Assembly: GCF_025685415.1 (NCBI RefSeq)
Contig: NZ_JAGSYB010000001.1
Location: 1,798,001 to 1,862,000 of the forward strand
Origin: Terriglobus aquaticus
GTDB taxonomy: Bacteria; Acidobacteriota; Terriglobia; Terriglobales; Acidobacteriaceae
Direction of reading: 5' to 3'
DNA: 64,000 nucleotides
Shown: positions 54,154 through 62,212 of the stretch, one piece after another
Layout: each line of letters begins with the position of its first letter
Numbering within the stretch: position 1 is the stretch's first letter
Notes under the pieces: model-generated
What the model was told of the DNA's origin: nothing
The model's database searches: none
Seen by the model: the letters and a program-made list of their open reading frames with translations, nothing else
Made by a program: the position numbers and the translations under genes

Positions 54154-54212
54154 GAGTAGCCGCTCAGGGACACTCGCGTTGTAGCCCAGCAGCCTCTAAG
54201 TTTTTGATTTGA

Positions 54213-54257
54213 TGGTGGGCACAGCAGGATTCGAACCTACGACTTCCACCGTGTGAA
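54213..54257 (-). other. 3' fragment of a tRNA-Val(CAC) gene: attachment site of an integrated element
   Basis: Read on the minus strand, the sequence gives the anticodon loop TTCACAC (anticodon CAC), the descending anticodon stem GGTGG, variable loop AAGTC, T arm GTAGG/TTCGAAT/CCTGC, acceptor strand TGTGCCC, discriminator A and CCA. The ascending anticodon stem (CCACC expected) and everything 5' of it are missing: position 54258 onward reads AACTC. A 45-base 3' tRNA fragment of this kind is the classic product of tRNA-targeted integration. The intact tRNA would then lie at the far end of the element, right of this window. Confidence 0.85.
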
Positions 54258-55207: not shown

Positions 55208-56488
55208 ATGGGTAGCGGTCAGAGCATCTTCGAGATTTGGACCGGTGCTCGTGATCTGCACTGTTACGGTACGAATGCATTTTCTGCGGAACTACCGTTC
55301 CAGAGTTGGCGACGGTTCAAAGAGGCTTTCGCTCCTGAACTGATCCATCGAGCCGTTGAGAGTAGCGCGATCCCTGTTCGCACGTGCCTGGATCCGTTTG
55401 GGGGTTCTGGCACGACCGCATTAGCTTCTCAGTTCTTGGGCGTGTACCCAATCACGATCGAGGTGAATCCGTTTTTGGCGGATCTGATTGAGGCTAAATT
55501 AACCAAATACGACACCACGGCTCTTGCACGAGACCTTGGCAGGATCCTCAGGCAGCGCCGAACTAACGACAGAAATTTGGCAGAATGGGCAAGTGGGCTT
55601 CCTGCCACATTCATTGAGCCGGGAGACGGAGATCGTTGGCTCTTTAGCCGCGCTGTCGGTACAGCCGTGCTGCAGCTCCTAGCCGGGTTGGACCGGATCG
55701 AGAACCCTTCACATAGGCGTTTGTTCCGGGTCGTCCTCGGCGGCATTCTTGTAGATGCCAGCAATGTCAGGATCAGCGGCAAAGGTCGTCGGTACCGAGC
55801 AAATTGGCGGCATTCGCAGCCTTCTGCTCAGGAGGTAGTCAGCTCCTTTGCTGAGAAGGCCCAACAAGCCATCGTTGAAGTCCACAGGTTCGATCATAGA
55901 CCCGAGCAGCGTTACAAACTCATCCGCGGTGACTGCCGAAATCAAGGTTCCTCCATCAAAGAAGTAGATTTGGTCGTCTTCTCTCCTCCGTATCCGAATT
56001 CGTTTGACTATACAGACGTCTACAACGTCGAGCTATGGACCCTCGGCTATTTGCGTTCCTCTCAGGACAATCATCGTTTAAGGAAGTCAACCTTTTCTTC
56101 GCATGTTCAGATCAAACGAGACTTCGCATCCGCTCCAAAAGACTCGCGCTCTCTGAATCGGGTACTGAAATGCTTGGAACTCTCCAAAGACCAGTTGTGG
56201 AGTAGGCATATACCAGCGATGGTTGGCGGTTATTTCGCTGATTTAGCTGCCCTGCTTAACTCTCTCCAAAGCTCCTTGAGAGCGGGGGGCTCCATCTGGA
56301 TGTGTGTTGGCGATAGTCAGTACAACGGCATCCGGATCCCGACCGCCGCAATTCTTGCGGAGCTCAGCCGTCCTCTAGGCTTTATCGTTACACTCTCTGA
56401 ACCTGTTCGATCGATGCGCTCCTCCCCTCAGCAAGGGGGAAAAGAGGAGCTTCCCGAAACGCTGCTGGTGCTTCAGAAAAAGGCATAG
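55208..56488 (+). CDS. DNA methyltransferase (amino-methyltransferase, SPPY type)
   Basis: The protein has 426 residues. The SAM-binding motif I (LDPFGGSGTT, residues 61-70) comes before the catalytic motif IV (SPPY, 259-262, within FSPPYPNSFDYTDVYNVELW), so the order is motif I then IV. The SPPY tetrad points to N6-adenine or N4-cytosine methylation. Glu85 in the ITIEVNPF block should contact the ribose of SAM. A ribosome site AGAGGA precedes ATG 55208. The gene converges on the nuclease gene with a six-base gap. It probably marks self DNA for the neighbouring system; the target sequence is unknown. Confidence 0.9.
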   Translation: MGSGQSIFEIWTGARDLHCYGTNAFSAELPFQSWRRFKEAFAPELIHRAVESSAIPVRTCLDPFGGSGTTALASQFLGVYPITIEVNPFLADLIEAKLTKYDTTALARDLGRILRQRRTNDRNLAEWASGLPATFIEPGDGDRWLFSRAVGTAVLQLLAGLDRIENPSHRRLFRVVLGGILVDASNVRISGKGRRYRANWRHSQPSAQEVVSSFAEKAQQAIVEVHRFDHRPEQRYKLIRGDCRNQGSSIKEVDLVVFSPPYPNSFDYTDVYNVELWTLGYLRSSQDNHRLRKSTFSSHVQIKRDFASAPKDSRSLNRVLKCLELSKDQLWSRHIPAMVGGYFADLAALLNSLQSSLRAGGSIWMCVGDSQYNGIRIPTAAILAELSRPLGFIVTLSEPVRSMRSSPQQGGKEELPETLLVLQKKA

Positions 56489-56494
56489 TGCATC

Positions 56495-57556
56495 TCAGGC
56501 AGAGGCGCCTAGAGCCCTTCGCAACTCGGCAGAAGAACTATAGAGATACCACCGACGTAGGTTGACTCCCAGCGCCGCAGCCTTGCTTAGAATGTGCTTG
56601 AAACATGCTGCACCTGTATCGCTCTTCCGCATGTCGAAGCAGCATAAAGCCGACGTCAAAGCGTGTGCCTCATTCCTGTATGCCGAGGCTTGCTCTACAC
56701 CCTTTGTAACCCAATCCACCATATCTTTAGGAGGGATAGCCTTCCCGCCAGCACTAAAGGATCTTAGGACCTTCAACTCGATGACCATGTGGTTAATGAG
56801 GCTTGAAGGCCCAACTCCTGTGTATTCCTCTATCAGTAGATCGACCCGACCGGTTACCTGAGTGCGCTCTTGTCGAACATTGCATAGCGGAAAGGCCCTG
56901 TTCAGACCCACCTTAATGTAAAACTGAACAGTCTGTTCAGCCAGCTTTACAGGGCGCCAGCGAGTAGCATCTTCCCACAGCTTCCCCACAGCGCTCTGTG
57001 CCTCGGGCGTGATCAATTCTTTCTGGTACAAAGCGTCTATGTGACGAAACACCTCGTCTACATTGACATTGCTAGTGAGAGGAGCGAGTTCCACGTGGTC
57101 TATGGCGTTAAGACCGTGCGGATAAAAGCGAAGCTCGCGACATCTAGGATCGAAGATCAACGCCGGCAGAGTGCCCAGCGCCAAGCCCTCCGAAACGAAT
57201 CGAAATAGCTCATCATCGTCGTTCGTCTGATGTTCACGAGACCAACCCGAATTCACTGTTGGGTTTACTATCCAGACGCGACCACCGAGCTGATTCTGCC
57301 CGTTCCGAAGCATCGGAACGCGGGAGAAGTTCTCCAGAGATACTTCACCTGAGCGGGCCAATAGAAAAACAGAAAGGCCCTCCTCGGAGAAGCCGCGTAG
57401 ATGTCTCAGTTGCACCAGTTTTGCCACGCCTCCTTTGAATCGTATCTCTGGCGGCATATCGGAATCCATTCCGATCGGCTGGAACGTTGCGGCTGAGTCT
57501 ACAAGCTCACTCTCAGTCCAAGCGCCCAGAGATGTTTCATCTTTAACCAGCGGCAT
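56495..57556 (-). CDS. PD-(D/E)XK nuclease, probable effector of a three-component ABC/SMC system
   Basis: The protein has 353 residues. The C-terminal half has the full nuclease pattern: Glu207, then GRVD with Asp239, IELK with Glu260 and Lys262, and Gln289-x3-Tyr293 (QASAY) as in RecB-like enzymes. The N-terminal 190 residues (with RFKGGVAKLVQLRHLRGFSE, FYPHGLNAIDHVEL) are of unknown fold and may sense or bind a partner. It starts inside the end of the preceding gene (14-base overlap), so it is translated together with the middle component and the ATPase. The end lies six bases from the methyltransferase end. Confidence 0.75.
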   Translation of the reverse strand: MPLVKDETSLGAWTESELVDSAATFQPIGMDSDMPPEIRFKGGVAKLVQLRHLRGFSEEGLSVFLLARSGEVSLENFSRVPMLRNGQNQLGGRVWIVNPTVNSGWSREHQTNDDDELFRFVSEGLALGTLPALIFDPRCRELRFYPHGLNAIDHVELAPLTSNVNVDEVFRHIDALYQKELITPEAQSAVGKLWEDATRWRPVKLAEQTVQFYIKVGLNRAFPLCNVRQERTQVTGRVDLLIEEYTGVGPSSLINHMVIELKVLRSFSAGGKAIPPKDMVDWVTKGVEQASAYRNEAHALTSALCCFDMRKSDTGAACFKHILSKAAALGVNLRRWYLYSSSAELRRALGASA

Positions 57557-58205
57557 ATAGCCTCCTGGTCATGTGAGATATGTAGGACTGGATCATTTCA
57601 CCGGGTGAGGTCTGGCCGTCTCTTCTCAGAAGAGAACCCAGCTTATGCGCTGCATTCGCTGCGTAGTTGGTTTGCCTCCATTCGGCAAAATCGACCACGT
57701 TTCCGGTATCGGTGACGGCGTCGCCGTATGTCGCATCTTCCTCGCCCAGAAGTGGAATCTCAGCATTACTAACAGACGAAAGACTAAGTGCAAGCTCTTG
57801 GCAGAACTCGCAAATCTGTAGCTCCTCTGGAAAGCTTCTAACGACCTCAAGCACGGGGTCTGCGAGCTGGTGATTCAAGCTGTACAGACCCCGCAAACGC
57901 CACTGATGATCGGAATCAAGACGATAATCGAGATCACTGAACGTGAGTAGACCCTGCCCAATCAGGTCGTCGGCGTCTGCCTGAAGAGCAGGATAAAAGG
58001 GGCCATCCTCCTTTTTCAGAAGCTTGCCCTCAAGCACTGGAATCTCCCAAACAGGAGCGAGTACGTTTGAGAGATAAGCCATCATGTGTAGCGATGCCGC
58101 TGGTAGAGGAGCAATTAACGCTTGTTCCGCGGCATCAACAAGAACGAGTATGCGAATGCGCCTCTGAATCGCCTGTTGCAACGGATCCTGAGCTGGGCTA
58201 CTCAT
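57543..58205 (-). CDS. Middle component of an ABC-three-component-like system
   Basis: The protein has 220 residues. The central block ASLHMMAYLSNVLAPVWEIP followed by VLEGKLLKKEDGPFYPALQADADDLIGQGLL reads as a winged-helix-like domain and strongly resembles the middle-component proteins that accompany SMC-like ABC ATPases in conflict systems. There are no catalytic motifs and no membrane segments. It overlaps the ATPase gene by 8 bases and the nuclease gene by 14. I infer that it bridges ATPase and effector. The family name is from memory and should be tested by profile search. Confidence 0.65.
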   Translation of the reverse strand: MSSPAQDPLQQAIQRRIRILVLVDAAEQALIAPLPAASLHMMAYLSNVLAPVWEIPVLEGKLLKKEDGPFYPALQADADDLIGQGLLTFSDLDYRLDSDHQWRLRGLYSLNHQLADPVLEVVRSFPEELQICEFCQELALSLSSVSNAEIPLLGEEDATYGDAVTDTGNVVDFAEWRQTNYAANAAHKLGSLLRRDGQTSPGEMIQSYISHMTRRLYAAG

Positions 58206-60195
58206 CCAGAGCCGCCTCTAAAATCCGTTCGTAAACTTGGTGGTATTCAGCCATGTGTGAGCGAACAGCCGCAGTGGGAGTAGCGATCCTTAGCAGGTCG
58301 ACCACGTGGTTAGAAGGCTCCCGGTCTGCTTTACTCAGGCGAATTAGGTCGGGTACCAGCGCGCCTTCCACTAGGTTGGACGTGATAACTAAGCGATTAG
58401 CTGATTTTCGCGTCGCGAAGCGAGCGAGAACCATAGCAGCTCTGTTGGAGAAGACAGCGTCAAGTGAGGATTCTGGAGCATCGATCAGCAAGGAAGAGGC
58501 TCCTTGATGTGCGCTCGACACCTCCATGAGAGCCATGCGAAAAGCAAGATCAATGAATTCGCGTTGACTTTCGGATACTTGATCCGGACTACTTCGTCTT
58601 GTAGCACCGACGAAGTCAGCACCCGTCATCTCGAGCCCAAAGGCTGGGAAGCTGACGGCCTCGCCTGTCTGACCAACGCGCGCTGAGTACGGCGCCCAAG
58701 TCAATTCACATTCTTCGATCAAAAAGCCTGAGGCATACTCGCCGAAGCTCGCCTTGATACTCTCTGAAAAATGATTGATCTTACGATTTTCGCCTTGCAC
58801 AAACGAACTGAATTCCTCTTGTCGCTGAGTCAGTTCGTCCTTCATTTCGGCAACACGGCGCTTAAGCGCGGAGAGACCGTCTAGCTGCTCACGTCGATCG
58901 TGCTCGTCTGGCGGGAGTTGCTTGATTAGTTGGCTGATCCTAAGAGCACGCTGCTCATAGCTTGTAGCCAGATGAACGAGTTCTTTTGCCGCAGCTAAGT
59001 AATCCTCTTCAGCCTGAGCGACATTGTCTCGTGCCGCCGACTGTTGCTGCTGGAGGGCACTCAACTCAGAAGTAATGAGCTCCAAAGAACGACCAGCAAA
59101 TTCAACACCCGGGAAGCTGTCGGGTTGCAAAGCTGTACCGCAAATTAGGCAATCGTGCTCGGCAGCACGAGTGGTGTAAGTGGTCACCGCTTCTTCAGGA
59201 GCAGCGTGACCACAAACCAGACAATGTCTGTCGGAGAGCAGTCGCGCTAATAGAAAAGCCGTAGTGTCACTCGATTTGGGAAAACTAGCGCGTATGACGG
59301 CTAACTTTGCTCTCTCATATTCTCGCTGATGGCTGTCCGCTTGCTGTTCCACTTTCAACAGTTCAAGACGGAGGCCTTGGCGAAAAGTGTCTAGCTCCGC
59401 CATACGCGCCTCCAAAGCATCGCGACGTTCCTCTTCTTGAAGCTGGAGCATTTCGAGGGTGACGAGCTCGGTACGTGTACTTGTCGCAGTCTCGACAGTC
59501 GCTGCTGCCCGACTTGCTACTTCTTCTTCTTTACTCACAGCGGCTCTTAGATTCCTCATGCGGCTGTCAAGCTCGAGAATCGTCCTCTCTTGCGACAGCC
59601 AAGATCCCGCAACACCGGGCGGTAGAAAGAGTAGTCTCAGAAGTTGTCGCTGGGCCGATGGATCCCAAATCAACGAACGGCGTTCTTCGAAATAGAAGAC
59701 GATGTGCCGTAGCAGGAGGATGAGATCACCTAAGGAACCAAGGCCGAGGAGGTTAAGGAATCGTGCCTCATAGTGTTGCTCAGTAACAGGCTGCCGGGTA
59801 TCGTCAATCTGGAAGTCCAGCAAAGACAAATCAGATAGTCTTCGTTGAATGACGACCTTATGAACACCTACTGAGAGCTTCAATGTGGCCGAGGCGCTTC
59901 GTGCTCCTTTGGCATCGCGATTCGCAAACAAAGCTCGTTTCGCTGGTGAAAGCGGAGTGTGACGCGTGTTGATGTTGCCGAGGCTTTCGGATCCGTCCAA
60001 ACCGGGGATGTCGAAGGGGCCTGTCATCAGGCGATACAACATCTGCATCAATGTCGACTTCCCAAGCCCGTTGGCTCCTAAGAAGAGTGTCAGGCCGTGA
60101 TCGAAAGCGACGTGTAGTCCCGGAGCATCGGGTGTGCCTGGGAAAAGTCCGAAATCATCAACATCAAGCGAGCTGAGAACCGGAAAGTTGATCAC
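58198..60195 (-). CDS. SMC/Rad50-like ABC ATPase with zinc site
   Basis: The protein has 665 residues. It has Walker A GANGLGKST (40-48), an ABC signature region SESQREF (541-547), Walker B LLIDAPESSLD with Asp572 and Glu575, and VITSN near 604. Between them lies a coiled coil (about 200-300 and 365-480) whose tip carries CLVCG (325/328) and CLICG (349/352), a four-Cys zinc ribbon or hook. It starts at GTG 60195, which overlaps an upstream stop (GTGA). It heads the operon with the middle component and nuclease. It most likely senses DNA ends or foreign replicons and licenses the nuclease. Confidence 0.88.
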   Translation of the reverse strand: MINFPVLSSLDVDDFGLFPGTPDAPGLHVAFDHGLTLFLGANGLGKSTLMQMLYRLMTGPFDIPGLDGSESLGNINTRHTPLSPAKRALFANRDAKGARSASATLKLSVGVHKVVIQRRLSDLSLLDFQIDDTRQPVTEQHYEARFLNLLGLGSLGDLILLLRHIVFYFEERRSLIWDPSAQRQLLRLLFLPPGVAGSWLSQERTILELDSRMRNLRAAVSKEEEVASRAAATVETATSTRTELVTLEMLQLQEEERRDALEARMAELDTFRQGLRLELLKVEQQADSHQREYERAKLAVIRASFPKSSDTTAFLLARLLSDRHCLVCGHAAPEEAVTTYTTRAAEHDCLICGTALQPDSFPGVEFAGRSLELITSELSALQQQQSAARDNVAQAEEDYLAAAKELVHLATSYEQRALRISQLIKQLPPDEHDRREQLDGLSALKRRVAEMKDELTQRQEEFSSFVQGENRKINHFSESIKASFGEYASGFLIEECELTWAPYSARVGQTGEAVSFPAFGLEMTGADFVGATRRSSPDQVSESQREFIDLAFRMALMEVSSAHQGASSLLIDAPESSLDAVFSNRAAMVLARFATRKSANRLVITSNLVEGALVPDLIRLSKADREPSNHVVDLLRIATPTAAVRSHMAEYHQVYERILEAALDE

Positions 60196-60949: not shown

Positions 60950-61513
60950 ATGACGTTCTCAGAAAAAAACATGTCAAGAGTAATCAGGCATCAATGGCGT
61001 CCAGCGCCGCCGCCCAAATCCGGGTTCGCAAGCAAGATAAGCAGAGTGTTCGTCTTTCTTGGTGCATTTGTAACGCTGTATGGGCTTTACGGTGTCTGTG
61101 TCACGGGGCCGGGTATAAGTCCGAGCGATCCATTGGGCCCCGATGCCCTGACGACTCCATTCAAGATCACGAACAACAGCTTCGTTCGGATGCGAGATGT
61201 TCAGGTGTTTTGCGCCTTGGATGAGTTTGCGACGGACGCCGGAGTCTCATTCAAAGACGTCGGCGTTTCCGACACACGCATCAATGCAGAGGAACTTGAT
61301 TACGAAGGTTCCGTGGACGTTGTATGCCCGAACGGTCTTGGACGGCTTCATCGGACCACGTTTGCCAACGTGAGGGTTTTCGGCCTATACCGGCCGGCAA
61401 TTTTCCCGCGCTGGTTTCCGAATAGATGGCCCTTTCACCGGTATGTAGAGCAGAAGTTTAGGTTGGTTCTCAACAGCGATGGGAAAGCAAGATGGCTGTA
61501 TGGGGCCAAGTAG
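60950..61513 (+). CDS. Single-pass membrane hypothetical protein
   Basis: The protein has 187 residues from ATG 60950, or 180 from ATG 60971, which follows an A-rich tract. One transmembrane helix (VFVFLGAFVTLYGLYGVCVTG) is followed by an extracytoplasmic beta-rich domain with two Cys (QVFCALDEF, VDVVCPNG) that could form a disulfide (NNSFVRMRDVQVFC, RLHRTTFANVRVFGLYRPAIFP). No family recognised. Its 3' end overlaps the convergent HTH gene by 79 bases. Confidence 0.7.
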   Translation: MTFSEKNMSRVIRHQWRPAPPPKSGFASKISRVFVFLGAFVTLYGLYGVCVTGPGISPSDPLGPDALTTPFKITNNSFVRMRDVQVFCALDEFATDAGVSFKDVGVSDTRINAEELDYEGSVDVVCPNGLGRLHRTTFANVRVFGLYRPAIFPRWFPNRWPFHRYVEQKFRLVLNSDGKARWLYGAK

Positions 61514-61782
61514 CTGATGCCGAGCGGTCGCGCCGTTCCCAAGGCGCGTGCGAGTGAGCACCGAACTGTGCGATTCACTTCACCATTCTCTTCCCTTACT
61601 AGCTCGAACACTGCTCGCGGTATGCGGATGCAGCGATATTGCCGCTTGTGCAGGGTCTCGGGCCGCTTCAGGATGAGGACGCCCGGCTCGTTCTCAAAGA
61701 GCCGGGTCGCCGTTTGCCTGGAGAAGCCGAGCAGGGCAGCGGCTTCCTCGATAGTGAGCACCGCCTTATCCTCAAGATTCAC
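61435..61782 (-). CDS. Excisionase-like HTH DNA-binding protein, copy 1
   Basis: The protein has 115 residues. The N-terminal part LTIEEAAALLGFSRQTATRLFENEPG is a winged-helix excisionase/MerR-type domain with the wing KRPETLHKRQYRCIRIPRAVFELV. The C-terminal 50 residues are not conserved-looking and run into the convergent gene. It is preceded by a close paralogue and overlaps it by four bases. Such small HTH proteins control excision or early gene expression in mobile elements. Confidence 0.75.
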   Translation of the reverse strand: MNLEDKAVLTIEEAAALLGFSRQTATRLFENEPGVLILKRPETLHKRQYRCIRIPRAVFELVREENGEVNRTVRCSLARALGTARPLGISYLAPYSHLAFPSLLRTNLNFCSTYR

Positions 61783-62012
61783 CGCGCCTTTACCTGCATG
61801 CGTTCTCTCACCCGTTCATACACGGCCCGCGGAACTCTTATGGATCGGTACTGGCGCTTATGCAGCGCCTCGGGGCGCCGGTAAATGAGAACGCCCGGCT
61901 CGTTCTCGAAAAGAGCGATCACTGTTGAAGTGGACAAGCCTAGTAGGTCGACCAAGTCGGCGACCGTAAGCACCTGCTTTTGGTCTGGGTCTTTCGGTCG
62001 CGCTCTTGGCAA
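61779..62012 (-). CDS. Excisionase-like HTH DNA-binding protein, copy 2
   Basis: The protein has about 77 residues. LTVADLVDLLGLSTSTVIALFENEPGVLIY and RRPEALHKRQYRSIRVPRAVYERVRE match copy 1 along the whole domain, so the two arose by tandem duplication. The start is probably TTG 62012 (PRARPKDPDQKQ) or GTG 61973. The frame is open to 62132, but that part overlaps another small gene. Confidence 0.7.
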   Translation of the reverse strand: MPRARPKDPDQKQVLTVADLVDLLGLSTSTVIALFENEPGVLIYRRPEALHKRQYRSIRVPRAVYERVRERMQVKAR

Positions 62013-62023
62013 GCATCCACCAA

Positions 62024-62212
62024 TTACGCGAAGCGGTCGAAGAGACCGTCTATCGTGCCGTCTTGTAGGCCGAGGAGTTCTAGAACAGTCCAGACGAGAT
62101 TCGCAGATAAGTCGCGGAGGCGGTCTCGCCATGTATAGGGAGCGGCAAACGCGATGATGGCGCTCTGCTCTGCGGTTGATAGTGGCCGGTCAGTTGCAGG
62201 GGTGATTGACAC
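62024..62212 (-). CDS. Small hypothetical protein
   Basis: A 62-residue frame starts at GTG 62212. Its composition is protein-like (PLSTAEQSAIIAFAAPYTWRDRLRDLSANLVWTVLELLGLQDG), with a helix-rich C-terminus. Its stop comes 11 bases before the probable start of HTH copy 2, so it fits an operon. It could be the true continuation of the gene starting at 62304 in another frame. Confidence 0.45.
   Translation of the reverse strand: MSITPATDRPLSTAEQSAIIAFAAPYTWRDRLRDLSANLVWTVLELLGLQDGTIDGLFDRFA

Follow-up and report, generated by a model that had tools for sequence, protein, structure and literature searches.

A DNA methylase linked to an SMC-like ATPase, a small middle component and a predicted nuclease: a candidate restriction-modification-like defence unit on mobile elements

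The window analysed here, a 64,000-nucleotide stretch of Terriglobus aquaticus DNA (contig NZ_JAGSYB010000001.1), carries a DNA methylase gene that converges on a core of three genes encoding an SMC/Rad50-like ABC ATPase, a small middle component and a predicted PD-(D/E)XK nuclease. Together, the four genes are probably a four-component restriction-modification-like defence unit carried on mobile elements. The genes form a unit with conserved catalytic motifs, the core is linked to one branch of methylases, the three core genes share a history, and the carriers are mobile; defence itself, the formation of a complex, self-marking by methylation and an activation step would complete the proposal. 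In window coordinates, the genes and their motifs are as follows (ORF, open reading frame):

55208..56488, plus strand: DNA methylase, 426 residues (ORF; Pfam N6_N4_Mtase 1e-12; PADLOC MTase_II 3.9e-45; sequence motifs)
55391-55417, plus strand: methylase motif I (motif search)
55979-56017, plus strand: methylase motif IV, SPPY (motif search)
56495..57556, minus strand: predicted nuclease, 353 residues, with the PD-(D/E)XK domain at about residues 206-340 (D239 to K262 at 56771-56842)
57543..58205, minus strand: middle component, 220 residues, winged-helix fold
58198..60195, minus strand: SMC/Rad50-like ABC ATPase, 665 residues, GTG start (LmuB 1.7e-13; sequence motifs; SMC/Rad50 matches)
60055-60078, minus strand: ATPase Walker A (motif)
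59140-59223, minus strand: the two ATPase CxxC motifs (motif)
58459-58491, minus strand: ATPase Walker B (motif)

The core genes overlap by 14 bases (nuclease/middle component) and 8 bases (middle component/ATPase), and the methylase and nuclease genes converge with a gap of 6 bases; the ORF coordinates thus agree with the overlaps and convergent gap reported in the initial annotation of this DNA.

The methylase belongs with the core. A related methylase lies within 2 kb of a core in 12/12 distinct loci with enough flanking sequence, which answers the co-occurrence check proposed at the outset: the methylase is present in every one of these loci rather than absent from most. These loci (numbered here with the prefix L) are the window, a Chloroflexota metagenome-assembled genome (L002), Burkholderia stagnalis (L005, with two cores), Azospirillum (L006), four viral contigs (L022, L024, L047, L051) and four genomes (L033, L034, L036, L039), giving 13 cores in total; the count excludes L049 and L021, both truncated at contig ends, and L050, a repeat of the L024 locus. 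The ATPase and the methylase are identified by profile in all 12. Six loci (L002, L005, L006, L039, L047, L051) were retrieved by a middle-protein or ATPase query alone, the profile that retrieved L047 and L051 containing rows originally found via the methylase.

The position of the methylase gene varies between loci. In seven loci it runs in the same direction as the core, at a distance of no more than 10 bases. Among co-directional arrangements it comes first in L024, L033 and the second core of L005 (at 0.4 kb), and last in L034, L036, L039, L047 and L051; it is convergent in the window, L002 and L022, as well as in the cut L021. Four-base overlaps join nuclease and methylase in L039 and L047, and methylase and ATPase in L033. 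These layouts suggest that the methylase is co-transcribed with the core in the co-directional loci. One KAP NTPase gene lies between core and methylase in L006. In Burkholderia stagnalis (L005:1-9795), one methylase is flanked by two divergent cores (29/25/27% alike), with Tn7-like genes adjacent, an arrangement that fits a mark shared by both cores. By eye, a gene resembling cytosine-5 methylases, its product carrying a helix-turn-helix at the N-terminus, can also be seen in L033 (L033:16691-18082), downstream of the system at a distance of less than 2 kb.

Unrelated defence genes might simply have gathered on an island, with the methylase as a passenger or orphan. The island setting is compatible with this explanation, and methylases of the wider family occur in 13 of 396 genomes of the window's phylum, 9 of the 13 without a core. 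Yet the 12/12 linkage extends across a Chloroflexota genome, Burkholderia, Azospirillum, viral contigs and the window's own phylum, the genes overlap, and the linked methylases occupy one branch. On these three grounds a passenger methylase is rejected, and this explanation retains only a very slight probability.

With the single window protein as query, the ATPase family was found in 2/300 genomes of the host's family. The survey of the 396 phylum genomes found it in four, all with the methylase; all four ATPases were rows of the search profile, and the result therefore shows no unlinked core rather than new linked ones. Four further ATPase surveys returned only the already known centre genome (1/148, 1/350, 1/119 and 1/18). 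In the large surveys, scoring covered 3-10 first-look candidates in each genome (every candidate in the 18-genome survey), so that misses are possible. Among 72,556 plasmid records (E up to 1e-10), the ATPase occurs in two, the same two that hold methylases at 43-46% identity, and the next plasmid methylase is at 26% identity. M.DraR1, a Deinococcus N4-methylcytosine (m4C) methylase described in part of PMC10855626, was considered for this 26%-identical protein and set aside, as the two are not shown to be the same. No core without a methylase appeared in the genome and plasmid surveys, which added few new loci.

The motifs of the ATPase place it among the ABC/SMC proteins with a two-CxxC zinc site, as first annotated: Walker A (GANGLGKS) is at residue 40, CLVC at 325 and CLIC at 349. 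Two CxxC motifs are found in 12/12 cores of the motif survey and are present in L006 too. Searched against PDB sequences, the ATPase profile has SMC and Rad50 chains as its top matches, and no Lamassu-named chain is among the 60 of 287 matches listed. The best-scoring described defence family is LmuB (PDLC03859), which matches 9/9 ATPases compared (best 1.1e-24). The AriA and mad3 models also match all nine, more weakly than LmuB (mad3 best 1.4e-13), while mad8 matches 5/9, PbeC (PDLC02747) matches 7/9 weakly (best 3.9e-8) and DndD matches 3/9 (best 9.8e-11). In two unrelated records, L002:1084-3091 and L006:5711-7911, the ATPase frame is split in the coiled-coil region, by decay or sequencing error.

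In ATPases of this kind, a catalytic glutamate is expected directly after the Walker-B aspartate. The Walker B of the window ATPase reads LLID-A573-P-E575, and it is A573, not E575, that aligns to the residue after the aspartate in a weak profile alignment with Smc3 chain 6zz6 (14.2 bits for the stretch). In the register set by this 14.2-bit alignment, the catalytic position is Ala or Thr in 11/12 cores, those in which the motif was found; L002 lacks a Walker-B call, its first ATPase piece stopping ahead of the motif. E575 is invariant in the nine ATPases compared. Judged by this alignment, E575 is not the canonical Walker-B catalytic residue, and the Glu575 mutant proposed in the initial annotation is therefore not the canonical choice.

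In the nuclease, the predicted active-site residues D239, E260, K262, Q289 and Y293 are identical in all 12 aligned cores (12 of the 13 known; L006, which also has a split ATPase frame, is left out), and the identity is therefore not chance; the motif first proposed, D239, E260-x-K262 and Q289-x3-Y293, is borne out. The domain is C-terminal. Neither the window nuclease nor the middle protein has a profile match in PADLOC, Pfam, NCBIfam or PHROGs, and relatives give isolated matches, marginal for the nuclease (PDDEXK_9 at 0.0075 in 1/6, DUF6641 at 0.062 in 1/6) and, for the middle protein, WH_III-A at 0.0019 in 1/6. Against PDB sequences (E up to 1), the nuclease finds no match and the middle protein a single chance-level one (0.88). 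The model of the middle protein aligns to a chain of a Lamassu complex taken as LmuC; the protein matches no Lamassu profile. The comparison with ABC-three-component (ABC-3C) middle-component, LmuA and LmuC families suggested in the initial annotation thus gave this alignment and no profile match. As a query, the middle protein finds one locus in the genome collection, none in phages and none in viral contigs.

These results bear on a second explanation, which is possible but unlikely: a Lamassu-type abortive system, triggered by replication structures of phages or plasmids or by DNA ends, whose nuclease attacks all DNA and kills the cell, while the methylase shields the host from self-activation or controls the operon. 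The rank of LmuB among ATPase matches, the alignment of the middle component to the chain taken as LmuC and a core in which no sequence-specific reader was found all favour it, as does the substituted Walker-B position, a feature of LmuB in passages of PMC10586767. Against it stand the C-terminal nuclease domain, unlike LmuA, and the methylase linked in 12/12 loci. Lamassu had been said at the outset to have no dedicated methylase, and the word stem ‘methyl’ is indeed absent from the passages of that review on which this comparison draws.

The methylase contains the motifs DPFGGSGT and SPPYPNSFDYTD. These motifs and the Pfam N6_N4_Mtase match confirm the SPPY DNA methyltransferase recognized in the first annotation, and the protein is predicted to be an N4-cytosine/N6-adenine methylase. 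Motif I and SPPY are found in 11/11 methylases of the motif survey and also in L006. Motif I precedes motif IV, a permuted order relative to the N6_N4_Mtase profile, whose best stretch aligns residues 28-94 to profile positions 159-219 of 221. Among PDB sequences only the motif-I region is matched, in three chains; of the 44 PADLOC families that match the methylase, 25 are listed. A separate two-gene arrangement is seen with the distant methylases of L025 and L028-L032, each preceded by a slightly overlapping open frame of about 630-715 residues whose product weakly matches the methylase profile.

A midpoint-rooted tree of 24 methylases, of which 12 are linked, 11 unlinked and 1 cut, has a branch with SH-aLRT support of 98 that places all linked methylases on one side. 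Among the unlinked rows, flanking sequence is limited to about 1-1.5 kb for L016, L019 and L020, whose genomes yielded no ATPase match in the 396-genome survey, and L026 has next to no flank on one side. The ATPase, middle-component and nuclease trees agree, with distance correlations of 0.940, 0.935 and 0.949 across 11 loci (without L006 and the first core of L005) and 0/5000 permutations as high. The three core genes thus share one history. By eye, L024 and L033 combine one core type with the other methylase type, and L047 shows the reverse; methylases have therefore been exchanged between cores at least twice, yet are never missing, which argues that some methylase is required. The window methylase is 50-51% identical to those of L002 and L022, versus 33-42% for the core, as expected if the target of the methylase is fixed.

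Because methylases have been exchanged, it must be asked which component reads the sequence. In BREX and in Type I and III systems, methylases of the PglX, HsdM and Mod types act as DNA readers. In a version of the proposed unit with the methylase as sensor, the methylase would be the DNA-reading subunit that recruits the SMC-type core to unmodified sites, and the core a generic effector able to pair with various methylases. This accounts for methylases that are exchanged between cores but never missing, and for the single L005 methylase with two divergent cores. Neither a contact surface nor a fusion is seen, and the methylase is convergent, hence separately transcribed, in the window, L002, L021 and L022. 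On account of the exchange, this alternative is given the same low weight as the Lamassu-like one.

In the restriction-modification-like unit favoured here, the methylase would place its mark on the DNA of host and element at a fixed sequence. Joined via its zinc site, the ABC ATPase dimer would form one DNA-clamping complex with the winged-helix middle component and the PD-(D/E)XK nuclease; unmarked DNA would shift this complex to an active state, and the nuclease would then cut. Because the Walker-B catalytic position is Ala or Thr, the ATPase is probably a slow nucleotide-dependent clamp or switch, as proposed for Lamassu, and not a fast motor. The initial annotation had suggested that the SMC-type ATPase senses unmodified DNA while methylation protects the host; the composition of the core and the linked methylase agree with that model, and gating by methylation would be its predicted step. 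More tentatively, and at slightly less than even probability, the systems may form a distinct restriction-modification class, in which an SMC/Rad50-type clamp replaces a helicase motor or sequence-specific endonuclease, methylation serves as the licence that silences this clamp, core and methylase are exchangeable modules, and what the clamp reads is not its own target sequence but the absent mark, or else the unoccupied methylase.

Several observations count against the unit so described. Methylase and core trees correlate poorly (r 0.115-0.122; 721-815/5000 permutations as high), so that coevolution of all four genes is not found where the methylase is concerned, a result against simple co-inheritance. 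Exchange is also odd if core and methylase must match in target recognition, unless the two methylase branches have a common target or specificity comes from the methylase itself. Within the core, no part for target recognition was identified. The branch that holds the linked methylases also holds the coreless L035 and L023, plus the cut L021. In L024, L033, L034, L036, L039 and L051, assignment of the nuclease relies on position, size and active-site residues on the alignment, its profile match being marginal at best (L024 0.00065), and that of the middle protein on position and size, with a clear profile match in L034 only. Finally, with split ATPase frames in L002 and L006, and a third ORF without the nuclease triad in L006, some copies may be dead.

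The coreless methylase on viral contig L023 (7992-13428) is convergent with an 849-residue KaiC-like protein (Pfam 7.7e-13), and the locus also encodes proteins of 274 and 279 residues with no Pfam match; this is possibly another effector set that uses the same methylase.

The carriers of the systems are diverse. L005 and L006 lie in Tn7-like elements (Pfam TnsA-like, Mu-transpos_C, TniB and TniQ), and L022 is a phage-like contig, Mu-like by eye, with an AAA_22 protein and lysis-like genes. Tail-like genes surround L024 (by eye), and a serine recombinase lies beside L051. In the window, the system lies in an island bounded on the left by the following feature:

54204..54257: left attachment-site-like repeat, 54 bases, identical to the 3' part of a tRNA-Val gene

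This repeat recurs exactly beyond the window, at 73929-73982 on the same scale, where it covers the 3' part of the tRNA-Val(CAC) gene (73938-74012, minus strand). A phage-type integrase frame (72691-73914, plus strand; Pfam Phage_integrase 5.3e-26) adjoins the tRNA gene, with a Prim-Pol primase (1.2e-30) nearby. The tRNA-integrated island noted at first is thus supported by the repeat, the tRNA gene and the integrase, with the correction that the tRNA itself lies beyond the window. The element is about 19.7 kb long, and the four-gene system sits at the end opposite the integrase. G+C content is 0.584 in the element, compared with 0.626 in window positions 1-54195 and 0.632 beyond the tRNA; the four-gene stretch, at about 0.53, is below the element average. 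Two small adjacent genes of similar sequence also lie inside the island (61435-62132, minus strand), the first with an HTH_17 match slightly below the curated cut-off (2.1e-5; 25.1 versus 27 bits).

Compared with known systems, the core most resembles Lamassu, ABC-3C and DdmABC, with which it shares an SMC-like ATPase of about 650 residues with a zinc site and short coiled coil, a small middle protein whose gene lies between those for ATPase and effector, and a nuclease effector. The catalytic Walker-B residue is substituted in both, by Ala or Thr here and generally by Gln in LmuB, which may hydrolyse slowly (passages of PMC10586767). The linked methylase distinguishes the present systems, as do a nuclease and middle protein that match no Lamassu profile. 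In the same passages, LmuA consists of an N-terminal effector and a C-terminal docking domain; the nuclease here has its domain at the C-terminus and does not match the LmuA profile, and assignment to Lamassu proper is rejected. The interpretation given in the initial annotation is supported in part.

As in restriction-modification, a methylase with intact catalytic motifs is linked to a nuclease whose active site is intact in the 12 aligned cores; Type II systems differ in that the nuclease here is tied to an ABC ATPase and middle protein with which it shares a history. MADS (methylation-associated defence, mad3/mad8) is similar in that mad3 matches every ATPase compared, and different in that no mad model matches the nuclease or middle protein. 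The CxC ABC ATPase-DndE systems (PbeABCD), coupled to cytosine-5 or permuted N4-cytosine methylases, likewise combine a coiled-coil ABC ATPase with DNA methylases in a predicted restriction-modification setting (parts of PMC10853773). Their hook is of the CxC type, and the further components are DndE, a small disordered protein and a fusion of an HKD nuclease with an SF2 helicase. In contrast, the four-gene system has two CxxC motifs, a winged-helix protein and a PD-(D/E)XK nuclease, and DndE, HKD and helicase domains have no Pfam match in the four window proteins.

ABC-3C and Lamassu systems are already known, as is the coupling of the CxC-DndE clade of ABC ATPases to methylases (parts of PMC10853773). 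Among the titles and abstracts covered, none pairs an ABC-3C/Lamassu core with its own dedicated methylase; the main classification of ABC ATPases (10.1093/nar/gkaa726) lies outside that coverage, and an earlier mention is possible. Self/foreign discrimination by Lamassu-type SMC sensors is described as unsettled in passages of PMC10586767, and a family with a linked methylase at each locus examined gives a direct way to approach it. If the proposed reading is true, these systems join SMC surveillance to the logic of restriction-modification.

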